From a virus: a DNA stretch of 31,624 nt. The translations under genes were made by a program, and so were the position numbers. Under the pieces are notes generated by a model. The model had not been told where the DNA came from. It was given only the letters and a program-made list of their open reading frames with translations, and made no database searches. Position 1 is the first letter of the stretch. Each line of letters opens with the position of its first letter. Positions 826 through 31,624 of the stretch are shown here, piece after piece. Location of the stretch: positions 1 to 31,624 of the IMG/VR virus record IMGVR_UViG_3300032057_000001, one strand, 5' to 3'.

Positions 826-2805
826 CTATCCAGCAACAATCATGCAGTCACAGCCGTCATGTAACGGCGGATGAGCATGATCCTGTCTAACATGATACGG
901 TTCGCCGTTCTGATTCAACACATCGCCAGCAGAGACAAATTTCTGACTAATCCCGATTTTCTTGCCGTCTAATTCATCACAAATCGGGCAATTTTCCTTG
1001 CCAGACGCAACCCAAGTAATAAAAGCAACACCTAATGTTGTAAAAGCAAACAGTGTAATTGCGCCGTTGGCGCGTACACTTTCCTTACTCGCGTCAAATT
1101 CCGCACGCGTTGTATCCCAATCGCTCATCTCTTCCTCAAGTTGCTCAAGAACATCGTTGTTACTTCTTTGAGCGATATTGATTGCGTTTGTGATACGCTC
1201 TCGACTGTAATACTCCATCCGCTGCGCCAATCTCTCCACATAAGCATCACTATACCGCTTGATGGCATCCCGATCGTAGTCATCCTTGCCAACCTCTTCC
1301 GTAGCAGCATCAGCCACAAGGTTGGCGTAAGTCTCCATAACCTTCCCCATATTCTTCTTGATGTATTCGCGATGCTCAGGATAAAACTCATCCAGATAAT
1401 TCAAGAACTCATTGACATTGATTTTTATTTTTTTCTTTGCCGCATTCAACAGGTCATTCCGCTCACGGCGATAAACCCGCGCAAAAGCATCCGAAAACAC
1501 CTTCCCGTACTCTTCCATCAGTTTTCGCCTGGTTTTAACCGCTCGCGCCCGGCGCTCATCACGCCTTTCCGAGATTTGAGCCAGATTTCTTTCCGTCTCA
1601 ACACCAACCGCCGACATGTTAAGTGGCTCAAGGTATTTATCGCCCATGCCTTTTGGCAATGGGTTCATTTCTTCCAGTTCGCGGATGTCATCCACACTCA
1701 TCCAGCCCCATTGTCTCGCAACCGAATAAGCCCGATAACGGCTTTCAATATCTCCTCTCAGCAGACCGGCAACCGTGTGTTTGGCATAAAATTGCTTTCT
1801 TTCGGTTTCTGTCAGTAAGTTCAAGCTGATAGACTGCTCGATATTCACAAGCCAAGGCATGAGGGTATAAGTGACAAATTCCAAACCCATGTGCTCGATA
1901 TTAGAAAACGTTGCGCGATCCAAATCTCCGATCATGTGAGGCGGAACGCGAAATATCCGCGCAATCTCATTGATTTGAAACTTACGTGTTTCCAAAAATT
2001 GAGCGTCATCCGGCGAAATGCCGATTTTCTCTACCTTCATTCCTTCTTCAAGTATTGCAACACGATGAGCCCTTTCAAAACCACGATGTCTTTCCTCCCA
2101 AGACGACTTCAAACGTTTGTAAGCATCGTCTCCCAACTTGCCAGGATGTACCAAAACAAATCCAGGCTCGGCTTCATTGGCAAAAAACGATGCACCAAAA
2201 CCTTCGGCTGCGAGTGACAACCCGATTGCCTCACGCGCCAAGCGGATCGGACTATAACCCATAATTCCATCACGCCCCAAACCGCGCAAGTGCCAGATGT
2301 TTTCTTGCGCAATGAAACGGTATTCTTTGCCAAATCGTTCAGGAAGTTCAACAGCATAAACCAGCAACCCGGTTCTTACATCACGCATAACCTGAACCGA
2401 ATCTGGATTGAGCGGCCACAAACCGATAATTCTCCCGTTTGGCGCATACTCAATATACGAATAAGCATTACCACGCAAACACAAATGCACCATAAGGAGC
2501 TGACGATAGTCAAATGCCGTCATCTCACCGTTGGGCGCATCATGCAGTAACCCATACAGTGGATGATCAAGAGCTTTTTCCTTCGATCGACCATTTTGGC
2601 GGTACAAAACCAGCGGCAACATGGCTACGCTCTCGCTCAGTAATCGCACACAGGCATAAACCGCAGAAGCCCGAAGTGCATTATCGCTGGTAATCGCAAC
2701 GCCGGTCAGAGACGTATTCCAAAGCGACTTACGCCGTTCCTTGATCAACTCTTCGGTGTAGTTCCGCTTCTCAAACCGCTCTAATAGCTTCGTCAGCAGG
2801 CTCAT
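826..2805 (-). CDS. Portal protein fused to a MuF-like minor head protein
   Basis: The protein has 659 residues, far longer than the roughly 400 usual for HK97-type portals. Residues 1-400 are a standard portal: ASAVYACVRLLSES near residue 50, SPIRLAREAIGLS near 185 and FRVPPHMIGDL near 285. It forms the dodecameric ring through which DNA is packaged. From about residue 405 comes a charged, helical stretch, and the last 60 residues carry the metal-binding signature of Mu gpF/SPP1 gp7 proteins (CPIC at 606-609, HPPLHDGCDC at 645-654). I read no break between the halves, so this appears to be a genuine fusion. The start overlaps the terminase stop as ATGA, implying coupled translation. Confidence 0.93.
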   Translation of the reverse strand: MSLLTKLLERFEKRNYTEELIKERRKSLWNTSLTGVAITSDNALRASAVYACVRLLSESVAMLPLVLYRQNGRSKEKALDHPLYGLLHDAPNGEMTAFDYRQLLMVHLCLRGNAYSYIEYAPNGRIIGLWPLNPDSVQVMRDVRTGLLVYAVELPERFGKEYRFIAQENIWHLRGLGRDGIMGYSPIRLAREAIGLSLAAEGFGASFFANEAEPGFVLVHPGKLGDDAYKRLKSSWEERHRGFERAHRVAILEEGMKVEKIGISPDDAQFLETRKFQINEIARIFRVPPHMIGDLDRATFSNIEHMGLEFVTYTLMPWLVNIEQSISLNLLTETERKQFYAKHTVAGLLRGDIESRYRAYSVARQWGWMSVDDIRELEEMNPLPKGMGDKYLEPLNMSAVGVETERNLAQISERRDERRARAVKTRRKLMEEYGKVFSDAFARVYRRERNDLLNAAKKKIKINVNEFLNYLDEFYPEHREYIKKNMGKVMETYANLVADAATEEVGKDDYDRDAIKRYSDAYVERLAQRMEYYSRERITNAINIAQRSNNDVLEQLEEEMSDWDTTRAEFDASKESVRANGAITLFAFTTLGVAFITWVASGKENCPICDELDGKKIGISQKFVSAGDVLNQNGEPYHVRQDHAHPPLHDGCDCMIVAG

Positions 2806-4469
2806 AAGGTTAGGATGCCTCGCTCTTCATAAACCGATCCGCTGTCATCGTACCTCAATGCCCGATCCAATGCCATGATCAACGCAACCATGCCGTCAAT
2901 CTTCTCAATTGAGCGTTGCTTATCTGGCTTGATATTGCCGGCCGGATCAACCGCAGCTACCAGGTTATCCGCCATCCACGCCAAAACGGGGTTGTTGCCA
3001 TGCGCCAATTTATGACTGAGAATTAGCTTTTCCAGCTCTTTCATCGGCGCGCTCATCGAGGCAAAACCCTGACCGAACTGAACCACTGTCAGCCCCATTT
3101 CCTGCAATTCCTGGACGATTTTGGTAGCTCCCCAGCGGTCGAAGGCGATCTCCTGCAAATCGTACATCTGCGCATCTTCATCGATCTGCGCCAAAATGTA
3201 GTCGTAGTCGATCACATTACCGGGTGTTGCGACCATATACCCCTGACGCACCCATGCATCATAAGGCACACGATCACGATGGCTTCGTTCGTGCATAGAG
3301 TCTTCTGGTATCCAGAACCGGCAAAGCACTTGATACGGATCATCGCTTCGTTCCGGCGGGAATACCAGTACAAATGCGCTAACATCCGTTGTCGAACTCA
3401 AGTCGAGACCACCATAACACCGTCTGCCGCGCAATCCGTTTGCATCAATCGCTTGCCCGCATAACTTCCAATGTTCAAGATTAACCCATTTCGTCTCGCT
3501 TTGTGTCCACACGTCCAGATCCAACCTCAAAAATGCATTTAGCTGGCTTGGTATCTCACGCGCCCTTTGCGCTTGCTGGCGCATGTAATCAATCTTTTTG
3601 CTAATGCCGATATTGGGATTAGCTTTGCGCCAAACAGACTCATCCTGCCAGTCATCATCTGTATCGATAGTATAGATAATACCGAACCAACGATCATCTG
3701 CAACAACTCCGCTCAGTACCTTCTCTGTGTATTCATGATGTTCCCAGCAGATCGACTCACGATCGTAGCCGGCCGTTGTGATTTCAAACTGCAGGGGATT
3801 TCGCCGCGCGCTTTGTGCCGTTTCGAGAATATCTACCAGATCACGTGTCTTGTGCGCGTGAAGCTCATCGATAATCGCCCCATGCACATTGAGACCATCC
3901 ATGCTATCGGTGTCTCTCCCCAACGGCTCAAATTTACTGGCTGTACTCTCCACATGCAGGTTGTCGCGGAATACCCGCACTCTCTTTCGCAATGCAGGGC
4001 TGGCTTTAACCATTCTGGTTGCTTCGCTGTGGGTTATCCTGGCCTGGTCTCGCTTGGTTGCGGCACTGTAGATTTCGGCGCCAGGTTCACCGTCTGCGGT
4101 GAGCAGATATAACCCAATGCCGGCCGCAAGCGTGCTCTTGCCATTTTTACGTGCCACTTCGTTATACGCCCAGCGAAACCGCCGTGTGCCGTTATCCCGA
4201 TACCAACCGAATAGATTCCAAACAATGAATTGCTGCCATGCTTCGAGGTGAAACGGCTGTCCGGCCCACTCGCCCTTTGAATGTTTAACAAGATTGAAAA
4301 ACAAGAGTGCCAACTCGGCCTTTTTTTTGTTCAATACCAGACCGCGTTCCTTGCCGTGTTCAAGATCGGAAACGTATCGTTCGCAAGCTAAACATTCCCA
4401 CTTGCCGGCCGGTATGTCTCCGCTTAAAACGCTATCCACGTAATCCAATATCTCACGCTCCCCCATCAT
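2802..4469 (-). CDS. terL: Terminase large subunit
   Basis: This is the ATPase-nuclease motor that cuts and pumps phage DNA into the prohead, 555 residues, typical of HK97-type TerL. The Walker A-like loop is EVARKNGKS (about 104-112), the form normal in this branch. Walker B is GAIIDE (197-202), followed by HAH. The C-terminal RNase H-like nuclease is marked by GLDLSSTTD (near 357) and IAFDRWGA (near 430). The gene overlaps terS by 17 bases and the portal gene by 4. Two ATG codons stand in tandem at the start; either may be used. Confidence 0.95.
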   Translation of the reverse strand: MMGEREILDYVDSVLSGDIPAGKWECLACERYVSDLEHGKERGLVLNKKKAELALLFFNLVKHSKGEWAGQPFHLEAWQQFIVWNLFGWYRDNGTRRFRWAYNEVARKNGKSTLAAGIGLYLLTADGEPGAEIYSAATKRDQARITHSEATRMVKASPALRKRVRVFRDNLHVESTASKFEPLGRDTDSMDGLNVHGAIIDELHAHKTRDLVDILETAQSARRNPLQFEITTAGYDRESICWEHHEYTEKVLSGVVADDRWFGIIYTIDTDDDWQDESVWRKANPNIGISKKIDYMRQQAQRAREIPSQLNAFLRLDLDVWTQSETKWVNLEHWKLCGQAIDANGLRGRRCYGGLDLSSTTDVSAFVLVFPPERSDDPYQVLCRFWIPEDSMHERSHRDRVPYDAWVRQGYMVATPGNVIDYDYILAQIDEDAQMYDLQEIAFDRWGATKIVQELQEMGLTVVQFGQGFASMSAPMKELEKLILSHKLAHGNNPVLAWMADNLVAAVDPAGNIKPDKQRSIEKIDGMVALIMALDRALRYDDSGSVYEERGILTL

Positions 4470-8659: not shown

Positions 8660-8835
8660 ACCTTTTTGTTATTCATTTTGACTCATGGCTCGCTTCGCTT
8701 GAATGGTTTTCACGGTTACAATGGCTCGCTTTTGGACAATGGTTTCCATTGTTGAAACGGCTCGCTCACATTCGGTTTTCTTTTGGAGGATGGCTCGCTC
8801 ACTTTACGGTTTCCTGTTAGGAGAAACGGCTCGCT
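8660..8835. repeat. Bipartite ~36-bp repeat cluster B (5-6 units)
   Basis: On the plus strand GGCTCGCT begins at 8687, 8723, 8759, 8792 and 8828 (spacings 36, 36, 33, 36). A second box of GGTTTTC type lies 15-18 bases after each (8705, 8741, 8774, 8808, 8846). A degenerate sixth copy (TTCGCTCACC, from 8653) keeps the 36-base spacing and merges with the ribosome site of the next gene. The rest of each unit differs. Most of the cluster is the only non-coding space between the genes at 9076-8804 and 8642-8208. It is either an array of protein-binding sites or an RNA-level element. Confidence 0.85.
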
Positions 8836-9076
8836 CATACAAATTGGATTGCTCAGGAGCTTTGGCTGATGGGTAATTTCCGACATCGGAATATTTGAGC
8901 AACTTATAGAGTAAAGTTTCAATCAAATCTTCCGCATACGCCATACCCCTGGCTATTCCCAGATTGTATGCTATTGCCAGTTCGCTTGAGCATCTTTCAA
9001 CTTCTGCTCTTACAGACTTCTTTTCTTCTTTGATGTCCTCAAGTATCCGTTTAATTTCATCAGTAATATTCATCAT
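8804..9076 (-). CDS. Unknown helical protein (90 residues) between two repeat clusters
   Basis: The N-terminal half is a charged amphipathic helix (DEIKRILEDIKEEKKSVRAE) likely to form a coiled coil. The middle (AIAYNLGIARGMAYAEDLIE) is helical, and the tail ends YERAVSPNRKP. The 3' end of the gene contains one copy of the 36-bp repeat. The gene is flanked on both sides by clusters of the same repeat, so it could encode the protein that binds them; that is inference. The ribosome site is GGAAGGTAG. Confidence 0.72.
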   Translation of the reverse strand: MMNITDEIKRILEDIKEEKKSVRAEVERCSSELAIAYNLGIARGMAYAEDLIETLLYKLLKYSDVGNYPSAKAPEQSNLYERAVSPNRKP

Positions 9077-10030: not shown

Positions 10031-10495
10031 TCAGCTATCGGTTTCAACGCCGATCGACCATAGGGTTTTCTGCCCAACTGGATGTCTATCCACCCGCGGC
10101 CTTGACTTTCGGCTCCACGTTCCACCCCTTGTTTGATATAAAACATTCCAACCAGCAGCCTTAAGCGATGTCCCTAACTCCTCAACTAGAGTGTAGGTGA
10201 TCAAACGCTTGTATCCCATCGCTCGCGCTGCCCGCCAGGCCGCAGCGTATAACATGCTAGCCGCGTTACGCGTGCCATCGGTACAGCAACGCGTTACCTC
10301 AAGCGTCCAGCCATCGTCAAAATAACGCGCTACAGGCCGGCCAACTGTAACAACGCCGACAACTTTTTCGCCATCATTCACCGCAATCCCAAACTTCCAT
10401 CCCTGCGGTGGAGGGTGATGGCGATGGTACTGATGGATGAATTCACAGGCTTCAACATAGCTGATAGGCTGGAGTTCCAGCTTTATCTCTGACAC
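10031..10495 (-). CDS. XF1762-family protein (GNAT-like fold)
   Basis: The 154-residue protein is typical of a phage family named after Xylella XF1762. The family signature is clear: PISYVEACEFIHQYHRHHPP at the N-terminus, GVVTVGRPVARYFDDG, EVTRCCTDGTRNAASMLYAA, and GYKRLITYTL near 105. The pattern resembles acetyltransferases, but the substrate is unknown. In many phages it sits with DNA modification genes, as with the methyltransferase stub here. GTG 10495 is preferred over the upstream ATG because GGGGGAGG lies 6 bases before it. Confidence 0.88.
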   Translation of the reverse strand: MSEIKLELQPISYVEACEFIHQYHRHHPPPQGWKFGIAVNDGEKVVGVVTVGRPVARYFDDGWTLEVTRCCTDGTRNAASMLYAAAWRAARAMGYKRLITYTLVEELGTSLKAAGWNVLYQTRGGTWSRKSRPRVDRHPVGQKTLWSIGVETDS

Positions 10496-10496
10496 T

Positions 10497-10610
10497 TCAT
10501 TCCTCCCCCAACTCCTCAATTTTGAAGAGACCCCAGCCGAGACCGGCAGAGTTTTTGCTGTCCGGCAGGCCTTCGCCGATGCCGATTTGCAAGATCAATT
10601 GGCACAACAT
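10497..10610 (-). CDS. Possible small protein (37 residues)
   Basis: The short frame from ATG 10610 encodes a glycine-rich peptide (MLCQLILQIGIGEGLPDSKN, then AGLGWGLFKIEELGEE). Its stop falls one base before the GTG of the XF1762 gene, and its 3' end supplies that gene's ribosome site. Support is limited to tight packing and a weak GGAAAG site. Another overlapping frame, beginning MYAWKVENVV, has a better AGGAGG site but an unlikely arginine-rich end. Confidence 0.4.
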   Translation of the reverse strand: MLCQLILQIGIGEGLPDSKNSAGLGWGLFKIEELGEE

Positions 10611-10847: not shown

Positions 10848-11780
10848 TCACCTCCATTGCCTCGAATAAATCGATAAATCCTGAACTTCTTGCCTGCTAT
10901 CGCCGGCCATTGCCCATTCGAGCCAGCCAACGCTCAAAGGGCTGTAATGCTTGCCGTTTTTTCCGCGCTGTTTTTTCCAACGCTCAAAGTACGGCGTTAG
11001 ATACGCTATTAGTGCCTCTTTGGTCGGATATTTAGACCTCAATGCCAGAATAATCTCGGTTGCCGGTGCGCGGATAGATGGCGGCATAGCCGGCATTTTC
11101 GTTACGCCGATATAAACCTCTTCGGCAAAAAGGGCTTCGGGGTATTCCTGCATAGCTGTAATAGCCATTGCAGTTTCAACCGGCGAAAAAGCAGGCGGAG
11201 AAGTAGCAGAAGCAGCAGCAGTTGCAGAAGCGTTGCGCGTTGATCTTTCTGCTTCTGCTTCTGCTTCTGTATCTATCTCTTCTGCTTCTGTTAATCTAAT
11301 CTTTTTAATCTGCAAAACGTTTTGTTGCAATTGCGTTGCGTCGCCGTTGCAATCGCGTTGCGCGTCTGCAACGTTTTCGTTGCATTCGCGTTGCATTTGC
11401 GTTGCAGTCCCGTTGCGCTTGGATTTAGACAACGTTTCACCGTATTGCGCTTTGCGTTGCGATTCACGATAACGCCTTGAGCGATCGGTGTTACTTAGGG
11501 GTGCTTGCCGTTTGACAAAATTGACCACATACCAATAGCCTTCTTCCTCATCGTATGCGATGATACCGGTTTTGGCTATCTCTTCCAGATCGGCTTCCAA
11601 TTCCTCTTCCTTCAAGCGCAGTATCCAAGCCATCTGCTTTACATCAGGAAGTTCGCCGGTTTCGCCATTCCGACCGGCAATCAAAAACAGTTCAATCGTA
11701 CGTCTCCACAACCGATCGGGAAGCGTGGCGATCTTTGGGTCATCCAATATTTCGTGGTACAGCTTAATCCAGTAACTCAT
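10848..11780 (-). CDS. Replication initiator with internal origin-like repeats
   Basis: The 310-residue protein has an N-terminal winged-helix module (about 1-110: MSYWIKLYHEILDDPKIATL, RLWRRTIELFLIAG, WYVVNFVKRQ) like phage replisome organisers. A low-complexity linker follows (about 112-205, rich in Gln, Asn, Glu and Ala). The C-terminal helical domain ends in GKHYSPLSVGWLEWAMAGD, a pattern found at the end of phage replication proteins. The linker is encoded by phased 11-bp repeats beside AT-rich DNA, the same arrangement as lambda gene O, where the origin lies inside the initiator gene. No helicase loader follows, so its partner should be a host helicase. The exact family is not certain. 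Confidence 0.8.
   Translation of the reverse strand: MSYWIKLYHEILDDPKIATLPDRLWRRTIELFLIAGRNGETGELPDVKQMAWILRLKEEELEADLEEIAKTGIIAYDEEEGYWYVVNFVKRQAPLSNTDRSRRYRESQRKAQYGETLSKSKRNGTATQMQRECNENVADAQRDCNGDATQLQQNVLQIKKIRLTEAEEIDTEAEAEAERSTRNASATAAASATSPPAFSPVETAMAITAMQEYPEALFAEEVYIGVTKMPAMPPSIRAPATEIILALRSKYPTKEALIAYLTPYFERWKKQRGKNGKHYSPLSVGWLEWAMAGDSRQEVQDLSIYSRQWR
11246..11290. repeat. CTTCTG hexamer tract
   Basis: CTTCTG is repeated three times in tandem and then twice more after TATCTATCT. The minus strand is almost all purine except for periodic C, and it encodes alternating Glu-Ala in the initiator linker. It adjoins the AT-rich region and the iterons. A complementary AGAAGCAG-rich stretch lies at 11204-11231 and could pair with it. 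Confidence 0.75.
11324..11422. repeat. Nine 11-bp iterons: candidate replication origin
   Basis: GTTGC starts at 11324, 11335, 11346, 11357, 11379, 11390, 11401 and 11412, and the inverted form GCAAC sits at 11368. All nine are exactly 11 bases apart, so all face the same side of the helix. The unit consensus is GTTGCANTCGC. Outlying copies occur at 11221, 11232 and 11456. An AT-rich stretch (11291-11323) borders the array as a possible unwinding element. Eleven is not a multiple of 3, so the protein repeats only every 33 bases. Confidence 0.85.
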
Positions 11781-12778: not shown

Positions 12779-13069
12779 TTATGTTTCCCTTTCCGCCTCC
12801 TCGTAAATTAATAGCCGTGCGACATTGATATAAAAGCTCCAATTTGATGGGTCGCCATTAGATAAAATAGATACCCAAAGAGGGAGAATTTCGCGGGAAT
12901 AGCTAAGTACCAGATATCGCGCAGCGTAGATTGCTATTGGGTGCGGTGTATTAACAATAATTTCGCGCAAGTAATTCAGGCAATTATTTCTTTCGTGTTT
13001 TTCTGTATAGAAAAATATATCGTATAACACAAATTCTTCTGACGTATTTTCCTCCATCACTTCTGACAT
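12779..13069 (-). CDS. Unknown early protein (96 residues)
   Basis: An acidic start (MSEVMEENTSEEFVLYDIFF) leads into helices resembling a short HEAT-like fold (NYLREIIVNTPHPIAIYAAR, REILPLWVSILSNG). ATG 13069 is chosen because GGAGG lies 6 bases upstream; an upstream in-frame ATG at 13084 overlaps the previous stop but lacks spacing for that site. No function is assigned. Confidence 0.68.
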   Translation of the reverse strand: MSEVMEENTSEEFVLYDIFFYTEKHERNNCLNYLREIIVNTPHPIAIYAARYLVLSYSREILPLWVSILSNGDPSNWSFYINVARLLIYEEAERET

Positions 13070-13080
13070 ATCTTCCTCCT

Positions 13081-13293
13081 TCATGGTCTGGTTTGAGCAC
13101 CCTCACGCTCTAATAGGCGGAGGATGTTTTGAAACGAGTCCACAGCAATTGCAATTCGGCGAACGCGCTCAAGTTCGGTGTATTCACGCTCTTCAAGGAG
13201 CGGACGGATTGCCCGCAATCCGCGCGCTGCTTCTTCTGCCGCCCTGTCGCGTGCTTCCTTCGCCGAGTTGGGCCATTCACGCGGTCGTGTCAT
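13081..13293 (-). CDS. Unknown small helical protein (70 residues)
   Basis: The protein is strongly charged and almost entirely helical (AKEARDRAAEEAARGLRAI, ERVRRIAIAVDSFQNILRLL). ATG 13293 overlaps the end of the membrane-protein gene by 17 bases and has an AAGG site at 9 bases. A longer frame begins at 13350 but would bury more of the upstream gene. It may pair with the membrane protein upstream; no family was recognised. Confidence 0.62.
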   Translation of the reverse strand: MTRPREWPNSAKEARDRAAEEAARGLRAIRPLLEEREYTELERVRRIAIAVDSFQNILRLLEREGAQTRP

Positions 13294-30052: not shown

Positions 30053-31342
30053 TTAGGTAGTCAGAGCATCAAGCATTGCAGCAAAGCTCTCAGGATAACG
30101 TACCGCAATGTCCACATCTTGCAGTGCAACAACCCGGATAGTGCCACTGGTTGATTGGGTATATGGATCAACCATAATGTCAAGCGTGCCCCACATACCA
30201 ATCAACAAGTCATTCCAGTTACCGAAGAAGATCGCACTGCAGACGCCGGTGGACGTCCCCTTGTCCAGGTCTGAGCGAACTTGGTTGGTAACGTAAGCTG
30301 GATAGCCGTTCAGCGGTGTGTTATTTGATTCCCAAACCATTATGTCGCCATAGGTTGGGGTTCGCTGCGTAACCTTAAGCTTGCCCCGCACTTTCGGATT
30401 GGTCATATACGCCAGAGCGCCGATGTCGGCATTATCGATTGCCACTTCGGTTTCCAGCTTGACAATGTGTTCCCAAGTCGGGGCAGCTCCGTTAGTCCCG
30501 CCAACTACACTACCAATCCCAGTAGTGTTGGCAATACCACGCGGCTGATTACTCGCACCACTCCCGTGCAACGCTGCATAATCGATCGCAATCGCTAGTG
30601 TTGCAGCCAGGTCAGAACGTACTAACCGCTCTACATCAACGCTGGATTGCAGTAACAGCTTGCGAGTGATGTCGGTAAACGCGCCAACGGTTTTGGGGGA
30701 CATCGCCACTTGGGCAACCGCTAACTGGCTTTCAGTGGGTGAGTTACCTTCAGCAACCCAGTAGGCCGTCGCACCACCGCTTTGCTTTGGGATGGCAATA
30801 TCGCCTACAAGTCCTCCCAAAACAGTCGCACCGGCTCGCTGAACCATCATCTTATTACGAAGCAGATCGATGAAGGACTGGCTAAGCAAGTCGGTCGCAA
30901 CAAGGTATCCGCCTTGTGCGGGAGTGCCTTTGTTCAAATCGCGGTATTCCATCCAGTCTAATGGCACAAAGAAACCACGCGGTTCTTTACCCAGCTTCTT
31001 AGCCGTTGCCTCACTGGCTTCATATTCCAGTTCGGCGCCTTTCCAATTGCCATTTACGATTGCGCGAATTGCACGCACAAGCGAGTAGTTTCTCAAATCG
31101 CGCTCTCCCATACCGATCTTCGCGTCGCTGTTCTCCTGAACGTTGCGAACAGCTAGTTCAAATAACTTTTCACGGCGTTCGATTTCGGCGTTGAGATACT
31201 CGATTTTCTTAATCAACTCGTCATATTCTGCACTTTCCGCTTCGGTAAAACCGCGATTTTCGGCATCTACCACATCAAGCAGTGTTTGAGCACGCTTGAT
31301 CAGTTCGTCTTTTTGAATTTTTAACTCACGAGTTCGGTTCAT
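30053..31342 (-). CDS. HK97-family major capsid protein
   Basis: The 429-residue protein forms the icosahedral shell. Residues 1-100 form a charged coiled coil (RAQTLLDVVDAENRGF, ELIKKIEYLNAEIERR), the delta/scaffold domain removed by the protease encoded just upstream. The HK97 fold follows: LLSQSFIDLLRNKMMVQRAG near 155, TVGAFTDITRKLLLQSSVDV near 225, YAALHGSGASNQPRGIANTT near 262, and GYPAYVTNQV near 355. The start follows a strong GGAGGTGATATT. The family is certain. Confidence 0.97.
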   Translation of the reverse strand: MNRTRELKIQKDELIKRAQTLLDVVDAENRGFTEAESAEYDELIKKIEYLNAEIERREKLFELAVRNVQENSDAKIGMGERDLRNYSLVRAIRAIVNGNWKGAELEYEASEATAKKLGKEPRGFFVPLDWMEYRDLNKGTPAQGGYLVATDLLSQSFIDLLRNKMMVQRAGATVLGGLVGDIAIPKQSGGATAYWVAEGNSPTESQLAVAQVAMSPKTVGAFTDITRKLLLQSSVDVERLVRSDLAATLAIAIDYAALHGSGASNQPRGIANTTGIGSVVGGTNGAAPTWEHIVKLETEVAIDNADIGALAYMTNPKVRGKLKVTQRTPTYGDIMVWESNNTPLNGYPAYVTNQVRSDLDKGTSTGVCSAIFFGNWNDLLIGMWGTLDIMVDPYTQSTSGTIRVVALQDVDIAVRYPESFAAMLDALTT

Positions 31343-31346
31343 AATA

Positions 31347-31624
31347 TCACCTCCTTAGCGTAAATAGTTTTAGTTTTCGTTTTTTGACATCCAGTTTCTC
31401 ACGCTCCTGCATGAGAGCCTGTCTGTCATCGTCTGATTGCGCTTTGTCCTCCTGGACATTGCTGCGAACCAGACGATATTTCATTACATCCCGCGCTTGC
31501 GCTATAGTTTGCGGATAGGCCGGGAATGTAACCACACTGACATCATATAACCGCCCTACATTGACAATTTCTCTCCGTAATTCGCCGTCTTCTTCATACC
31601 AGCGATCGCCACTTTCCGACACCG
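31347..31624 (-). CDS. HK97-family prohead protease, C-terminal part
   Basis: This is the continuation of the gene that occupies 1-815. The 127 terminal bases are the shared repeat, and the frame is unbroken across the join. The segment after the active-site serine contains REIVNVGRLYDVSVVTFPAY, the usual end of the protease fold. A charged tail (DDDRQALMQEREKLDVKKRK) follows that may contact the scaffold. The stop is 4 bases before the capsid start codon, and the capsid ribosome site directly follows it. Do not annotate this end as a separate 91-residue gene. Confidence 0.93.
   Translation of the reverse strand, partial: VSESGDRWYEEDGELRREIVNVGRLYDVSVVTFPAYPQTIAQARDVMKYRLVRSNVQEDKAQSDDDRQALMQEREKLDVKKRKLKLFTLRR
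31498..31624. repeat. 127-bp direct terminal repeat (right copy)
   Basis: This segment is identical to bases 1-127. Removing either copy and joining the ends restores the protease gene and closes the circle. Confidence 0.95.

Follow-up and report, generated by a model that had tools for sequence, protein, structure and literature searches.

The question raised by this locus is why a phage gene for replication initiation should carry, within its own reading frame, a five-letter motif repeated at exact 11-bp steps. The window that we analysed, 31,624 nucleotides in length, is one entire IMG/VR virus record (IMGVR_UViG_3300032057_000001), and a preliminary description of its sequence had proposed that the repeats mark a candidate origin. 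We favour the same answer, at a probability of about 0.83: the array segment is the phage replication origin, located in that part of the initiator gene which codes for the linker and read by the initiator itself, protein binding, DNA melting and helicase loading being inferred. The proposal is supported by analogy with the rep gene of phage Tuc2009, while neither the start of replication nor binding by the initiator has been shown for the window phage.

The portal gene (826-4469) and the capsid gene (30053-31622) lie at opposite ends of the window, both on the minus strand, and would adjoin if the ends were joined; the record may therefore represent a phage genome of ~31.6 kb that is near-complete and circularly permuted. 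Prophage relatives were found in Chloroflexi MAGs, Pelolinea among them, and the host is therefore probably a member of the Chloroflexota. A Mom-like DNA modification protein (PHROG 1384, 4e-38) is encoded at 10031-10519, a short way downstream of the initiator gene. Two other repeats were seen in the window, namely a 33-bp tandem repeat at 8754-8837 (2.4 copies, partly overlapping small ORFs; 33 is 3 x 11) and a 24-bp repeat in two copies at 13036-13083, within the small ORF 12779-13084. An Rfam search of the window gave no match.

The gene concerned and the domains of its product are as follows.

10848-11780, minus strand: initiator gene, 310 aa, with a winged-helix N-domain, a disordered linker and a small helical C-domain
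11505-11780, minus strand: winged-helix N-domain, residues 1-92, presumed reader of the iterons (AlphaFold2 pLDDT, helix-strand pattern and weak winged-helix matches)
10956-11183, minus strand: helical C-domain, residues 200-275 (AlphaFold2 model)

The 310-aa product matches PHROG 3926 (replication initiation, 2.8e-9) and PHROG 10469 (DnaD-like helicase loader, 4.6e-8). A tblastn search of INPHARED with the window protein as query returned nothing. An AlphaFold2 model built from 51 relatives gives the N-domain a pLDDT mostly between 81 and 98 (61 for residues 1-10), followed by a long helix at residues 97-118 and by low confidence at residues 127-147 and 163-195. Since the block of nine iterons encodes residues about 122-154, it falls mostly within the disordered linker, and the placement of the array in the linker-coding part of an initiator gene, as first described, is borne out. 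Fold comparison of the model with the PDB yielded winged-helix matches, and viral replisome organisers appeared among the weak matches in BFVD; all PDB matches of the whole model were weak, none reaching E <= 0.001, which we count against the origin reading. A RepA_N plasmid initiator was considered and set aside: no Pfam family, RepA_N included, scored above the cut-off, a sequence search of the PDB found no match, and the 50 best PDB fold matches listed included no RepA_N structure.

The DNA features inside the gene are given below.

11318-11416, minus strand: nine contiguous 11-bp iterons, core GCAAC(G) on the coding strand, slot 5 inverted (GTTGC)
11368-11372, plus strand: the sole inverted iteron core, GCAAC
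11450-11460, minus strand: tenth iteron, GCAACGCAAAG, in phase and four slots upstream of the block
11276-11325, no strand assigned: AT-rich stretch, 70% A+T, directly downstream of the last iteron in the coding sense
11247-11293, minus strand: purine-rich hexamer tract, CAGAAG-type repeats on the coding strand (TRF; purine peak and period-6 peak)
11207-11269, minus strand: potential hairpin, the hexamer tract paired with a downstream pyrimidine arm (23-nt arms, 87% complementary)
11221-11236, minus strand: two extra GCAAC cores beyond the tract

All nine copies reported at exact 11-base steps, one of them inverted, were recovered in a single phase, GTTGC starting at 11324, 11335, 11346, 11357, 11379, 11390, 11401 and 11412 on the plus strand on either side of the inverted slot. 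A tenth GTTGC at 11456, 12 x 11 from 11324, had been missed. Read on the coding strand, each unit consists of GCAACG and then a variable part, and the units follow one another without gaps: GCAACGGGACT, GCAACGCAAAT, GCAACGCGAAT and GCAACGAAAAC, then the inverted unit 5, GTTGCAGACGC, then GCAACGCGATT, GCAACGGCGAC, GCAACGCAATT and GCAACAAAACG. In the coding sense the order is thus the tenth iteron, a gap of three slots, the nine iterons, the AT-rich stretch, the purine hexamer tract with its hairpin and the two further cores; these last, at 11221 and 11232, are one 11-bp step from each other but do not share the phase of the main array, and both are kept in a 93%-identical relative (L002). The claim that the iterons are helically phased holds only in part, for the 11-bp step is exact but 11.0 bp is not exactly one turn of free B-DNA. 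Free B-DNA has about 10.5 bp per turn, so that successive sites rotate by ~17 degrees per step and by ~137 degrees over nine.

The AT-rich stretch and the hexamer tract said to lie next to the array are likewise real, the TTCTGC hexamers at 11247-11269 showing 100% matches in TRF. We regard the stretch as a candidate unwinding element. The DNA fold of 11195-11300 has a z of -4.36, and a similar fold is predicted for L002 though the sequence of its 3' arm differs; the hairpin could be a single-strand initiation structure. GC skew is monotonic along the window and makes no turn at the array, a result that we list against an origin at this place, although the skew check that had been suggested carries little information here.

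Does this arrangement recur? Relatives were gathered solely by N-terminal protein similarity, and identical pentamers in their linker DNA were counted at each lag and compared with synonymous-codon shuffles. Among 51 dereplicated distant relatives of the window family, the window and its twin being left out, lag 11 gave 127 pentamer pairs against 16 expected (z 19.7), with harmonics at lag 22 (59 vs 12) and lag 33 (72 vs 32), besides a second series at lags 6, 12 and 18 that arises from the hexamer tract. The same lag stood out in a second family (MAERRMF...ADDDGF type, 65 genes; 225 vs 52, z 19.0; lag 22 z 15.6), which also shows a 5-bp series, and in a third (39 genes; 185 vs 44, z 17.8; lag 22 z 19.5; lag 33 z 10.2). 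In 75 other phage ORFs, taken as control, it was absent (5 vs 11, z -1.5). The cores vary within and between families (GTCAC, GTAAC, GAAAC, CGAAC and GCAAC; ATACC, ATACA, GGCAA and GTATA; GAACA and GAGCA), so the core drifts, for instance through GCAAC, CAGAC, GTCAC, GAACA and ATACC, while the step is kept. The expectation that the 11-base periodicity would persist as linker residues drift was therefore fulfilled, both in these lag-11 scores and in L002, whose changes within the array lie outside the cores. Copy number in relatives is usually 3-6, which makes the window a long example; at least three copies were found in 35/52 window-family relatives (16.4 expected) and at least four in 8/52 (1.1 expected). 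In many of these relatives the number stops at 3-4, and under strict criteria some lack copies altogether, which also weighs against the origin reading.

The tract accompanies the array in two of the families. Purine content alone proved a noisy marker and a period of 5/6 detected the tract better; the mean score for a purine-rich tract of 5-6 bp period was 0.705 in the window family (0.590 in synonymous shuffles) and 0.682 in the second family (0.506). In both, the median distance from the first base of the last iteron to the beginning of the tract is 9-15 bp, and the tract lies downstream of the array in 21/24 and 32/43 arrays, respectively, which establishes array-then-tract as the usual order. 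In the third family (the L134 family) the tract is barely visible, and we count this against the origin reading. Some initiators (L017-L135 and the relatives L381-L460) have arrays in the opposite orientation or palindrome-like cores (GGCAACC/GGTTGCC, TGTATACA and GGTATACC), which suggests that some N-domains bind as dimers per 11-bp unit.

Iteron origins inside initiator genes are already known. A later paper reports that TP901-1 ORF13 and Tuc2009 Rep2009 each bind a region of their own gene in which direct repeats abound and which serves as ori (PMC8965321). The Tuc2009 rep gene (ORF16, Rep2009), whose record is annotated 'contains origin of replication' and whose in-gene ori is reported as proven, is the closest parallel: it is a DnaD-like/replisome-organiser gene with direct repeats at 11-bp steps, TTGGCAACCAA GTGTCAACCAT TCCGCAACCAA ATGACAACCAA, that is, four CAACC (GGCAAC-like units when one mismatch is allowed), and AGGATAGGATAGGAGAGGTTAGGTTAGG follows shortly after them, a 5-bp AGGTTAGG-type tract standing directly after the units. 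An in-gene origin of the Tuc2009 type should combine, besides binding of the repeats by the initiator and a replication start at the site, a DnaD-like/replisome-organiser identity, direct repeats in the linker and an AT-rich or short-period tract; the first is met here by the matches to PHROG 3926 and 10469, the second by the array, and the third by the 70% A+T, the hexamer tract and the position of the tract in relatives. Tuc2009 differs in having four units rather than nine or ten, another protein family, a 5-bp rather than a 6-bp tract, and Lactococcus rather than a probable member of the Chloroflexota as host. With one mismatch allowed, 11-bp chains also occur in the phages Staphylococcus IME1361_01 (6), Ruminococcus phiRgIBDN1 (5), Lactobacillus Lc-Nu (5), Brochothrix NF5 (4) and Vibrio 1.133.O (4). 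The reported in-gene ori of the TP901-1 rep gene (L307 6747-7565), on the other hand, has 15-bp CCAGAT repeats and no 11-bp array, so the 11-bp step is common without being obligatory and other spacing classes exist. In the accessible literature on 11-bp iterons or repeats in phage origins we found no 11-bp rule; the primary Tuc2009 and r1t papers may already give the spacing.

Other systems resemble the locus less closely. The preliminary description was right to contrast it with the four ~18-bp iterons of lambda, but lambda is not the nearest analogue, the replisome organisers of lactococcal and other Firmicute phages being nearer. Lambda gene O shares the location of the origin in the linker-coding part of the initiator gene and the order of iterons then purine/AT-rich tract; its four 18-bp iterons, however, start 20-24 bp apart, contain inverted half-sites and form no 11-bp chain. 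A lambda O type origin, with about four dyad iterons of 18-20 bp, thus does not describe this array, in which nine 11-bp units adjoin, all direct but for a single inverted one. E. coli 9-mer DnaA boxes with 2 bp between them would repeat every 11 bp, and the DnaA box consensus is TTATNCACA; an array of such 9-mers was excluded, the core here being GCAACG. SPP1 gp38 binds direct repeats inside gene 38 (oriL), beside an AT-rich unwinding element (PMC6316719), a like case of in-gene direct repeats adjoining an AT-rich element. The RepA_N initiators of plasmids and satellites likewise have a DnaD-like DNA-binding N-domain that acts on iterons (PMC7145576); in the V. cholerae satellite PLE, though, these are three semi-palindromes of ~30 bp in a non-coding region (PMC7145576, PMC8263062), unlike the in-gene 11-bp units described here. 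In bacterial oriC, close DnaA boxes of the same direction, one inverted box being tolerated, stand beside a short-period, strand-specific tract that is bound single-stranded (PMC10316083). The likeness to such DnaA boxes and DnaA-trios (close same-direction sites, one inverted, short-period tract) is one of logic only, given an unrelated AAA+ initiator and a different box sequence.

The explanation that competes best with an origin is that the array is used by the initiator for regulation or maintenance, be it autoregulation, copy control or a role akin to partition, and is not where replication starts. Iteron initiators often autoregulate, and the present data do not map the start of synthesis. 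Against this, the site lies within coding sequence, at a good distance downstream from where the gene starts, the AT-rich stretch and the short-period tract come after the array as in the Tuc2009 region reported as ori, and initiators of several families carry the array at a corresponding place. We accordingly hold a purely regulatory role to be unlikely, without dismissing it.

A second possibility accepts the origin and assigns the repeats to a host protein instead of the phage initiator. Origins can carry sites for host proteins, and T. maritima DnaA boxes also lie close together head-to-tail (PMC10316083). The origin reading as a whole draws on a scan of viral contigs for the DNA pattern alone. 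Four GCAAC at 11 bp were found in at least 119 viral contigs, but control scans gave 96 contigs (GCAAC at 10-bp spacing) and 75 (CAGAC x4 at 11 bp), so raw counts prove little and were discarded as proof. What separates the scans is location: among the matches listed, the array fell within an ORF 150 aa or more in length, with its centre at residues 90-260, in 81/119 cases for GCAAC at 11 bp, compared with 18/96 at 10 bp and 37/75 for CAGAC. CAGAC could not be kept as a negative control, for it proved to be a second genuine core, sharing protein clusters with GCAAC (28+24 and 34+5). Among the matches listed, 85 proteins that the GCAAC/11 DNA pattern had selected were classified; 38 match PHROG 10469 (DnaD-like helicase loader), 36 and 34 two other families, 18 the O-like initiator family and 17 the replication initiation family, the sets overlapping, and helicase-loader and replisome-organiser families are also common. 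On the tree of the first GCAAC/CAGAC cluster, the core changed 9 times by parsimony, at least 3 of these changes being forced by strong branches, and core labels are clustered on the N-domain tree (9 changes vs 17.5 for shuffled labels, 0/500 as low), which is what reading of the core by the N-domain would predict. That the core varies within one initiator family and tracks its N-domain indicates the phage protein as the reader. GCAACG is, moreover, unlike the DnaA box TTATNCACA, and a host reader seems to us very unlikely.

Still less support remains for the view that the repeats exist for the protein, as a linker or coiled segment whose regularity the DNA merely follows. The 11-residue repeat that had been noticed (TQMQRECNEN, ADAQRDCNGD) is genuine and three DNA units long, and some synonymous shuffles keep chains of 6-7, the protein thus carrying part of the pattern. 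The array is nonetheless a DNA-level signal, as had been claimed from its spacing. Its cores fall in codon frames 2,1,0,2,1,0 and so on, the identical pentamer encoding different residues as it rotates through the three frames, and the protein repeat therefore merely reflects 3 x 11 bp. Within the gene, direct identical pentamers form a phased chain of up to 8 at period 11, a length reached in 0/2000 synonymous-codon shuffles (maximum 7); dinucleotide shuffles gave chains of 2-3, and periods of 8 to 23 other than 11 gave chains of at most 5, the 5 occurring at period 22, a multiple of 11. Between the window and L002, 0/53 core positions changed as opposed to 8/46 spacer positions (Fisher p 0.0015), and the array's four residue changes all originate in spacers; substitutions, in other words, alter residues and spare cores. 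Lag-11 pairs in relatives also far exceed synonymous shuffles and the linker is predicted to be mostly disordered. We reject this explanation on codon-frame rotation, synonymous shuffles and the pattern of substitution. A functionless minisatellite born of slippage or recombination is scarcely credible: tandem repeats do occur in viral contigs, and the matches of the control scans (96 and 75) lay partly outside long ORFs, but here spacers differ while cores stay, the conservation between relatives is significant and is the reverse of units being lost and gained at random, the period remains 11 across families despite different cores, and arrays are concentrated in initiator linkers.

For an origin read by the phage initiator, the following mechanism may be put forward; the array, its constraint, its recurrence and its place are observed, whereas every step from protein binding, through wrapping or underwinding, to melting and the loading of the helicase is inferred, without binding, replication or read-depth data. 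The winged-helix N-domain would recognise the GCAACG core, one protomer or dimer sitting on each 11-bp unit, and cooperative contacts between neighbours could produce a filament or a wrap along the array. Because the 11.0-bp step is wider than the 10.5-bp turn, such a regular oligomer would either trace a shallow superhelix or hold the DNA underwound towards 11 bp per turn. Either strain might then melt the neighbouring DNA, namely the 70%-AT stretch and the purine hexamer tract, and on the strand thus exposed the C-domain would bring in the replicative helicase or the helicase loader; a contact between the helical C-domain and one of these proteins is possible and remains an inference.

On a wider scale we lean, with some reserve, towards the idea that several initiator families distinct in sequence share one origin architecture, made of 11-bp head-to-tail sites in the DNA that codes for the linker and, after them, a purine-rich tract of 5-6 bp period, in which the letters evolve freely with the N-domain and the step is kept, a geometric code convergent with the layout of DnaA boxes and DnaA-trios in bacterial chromosomes. 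For uncultured phages the origin is seldom known. Should the 11-bp rule hold, the origin, its reading direction, its core and the cognate DNA-binding domain would be predictable from a single gene, and the many natural core changes against a fixed step could yield rules for the recognition helix. The difference between a step of 11.0 and one of 10.5 bp is itself a testable claim on underwinding during origin melting. Finally, if the shared architecture is true, origins would become readable from sequence in thousands of uncultured phages.
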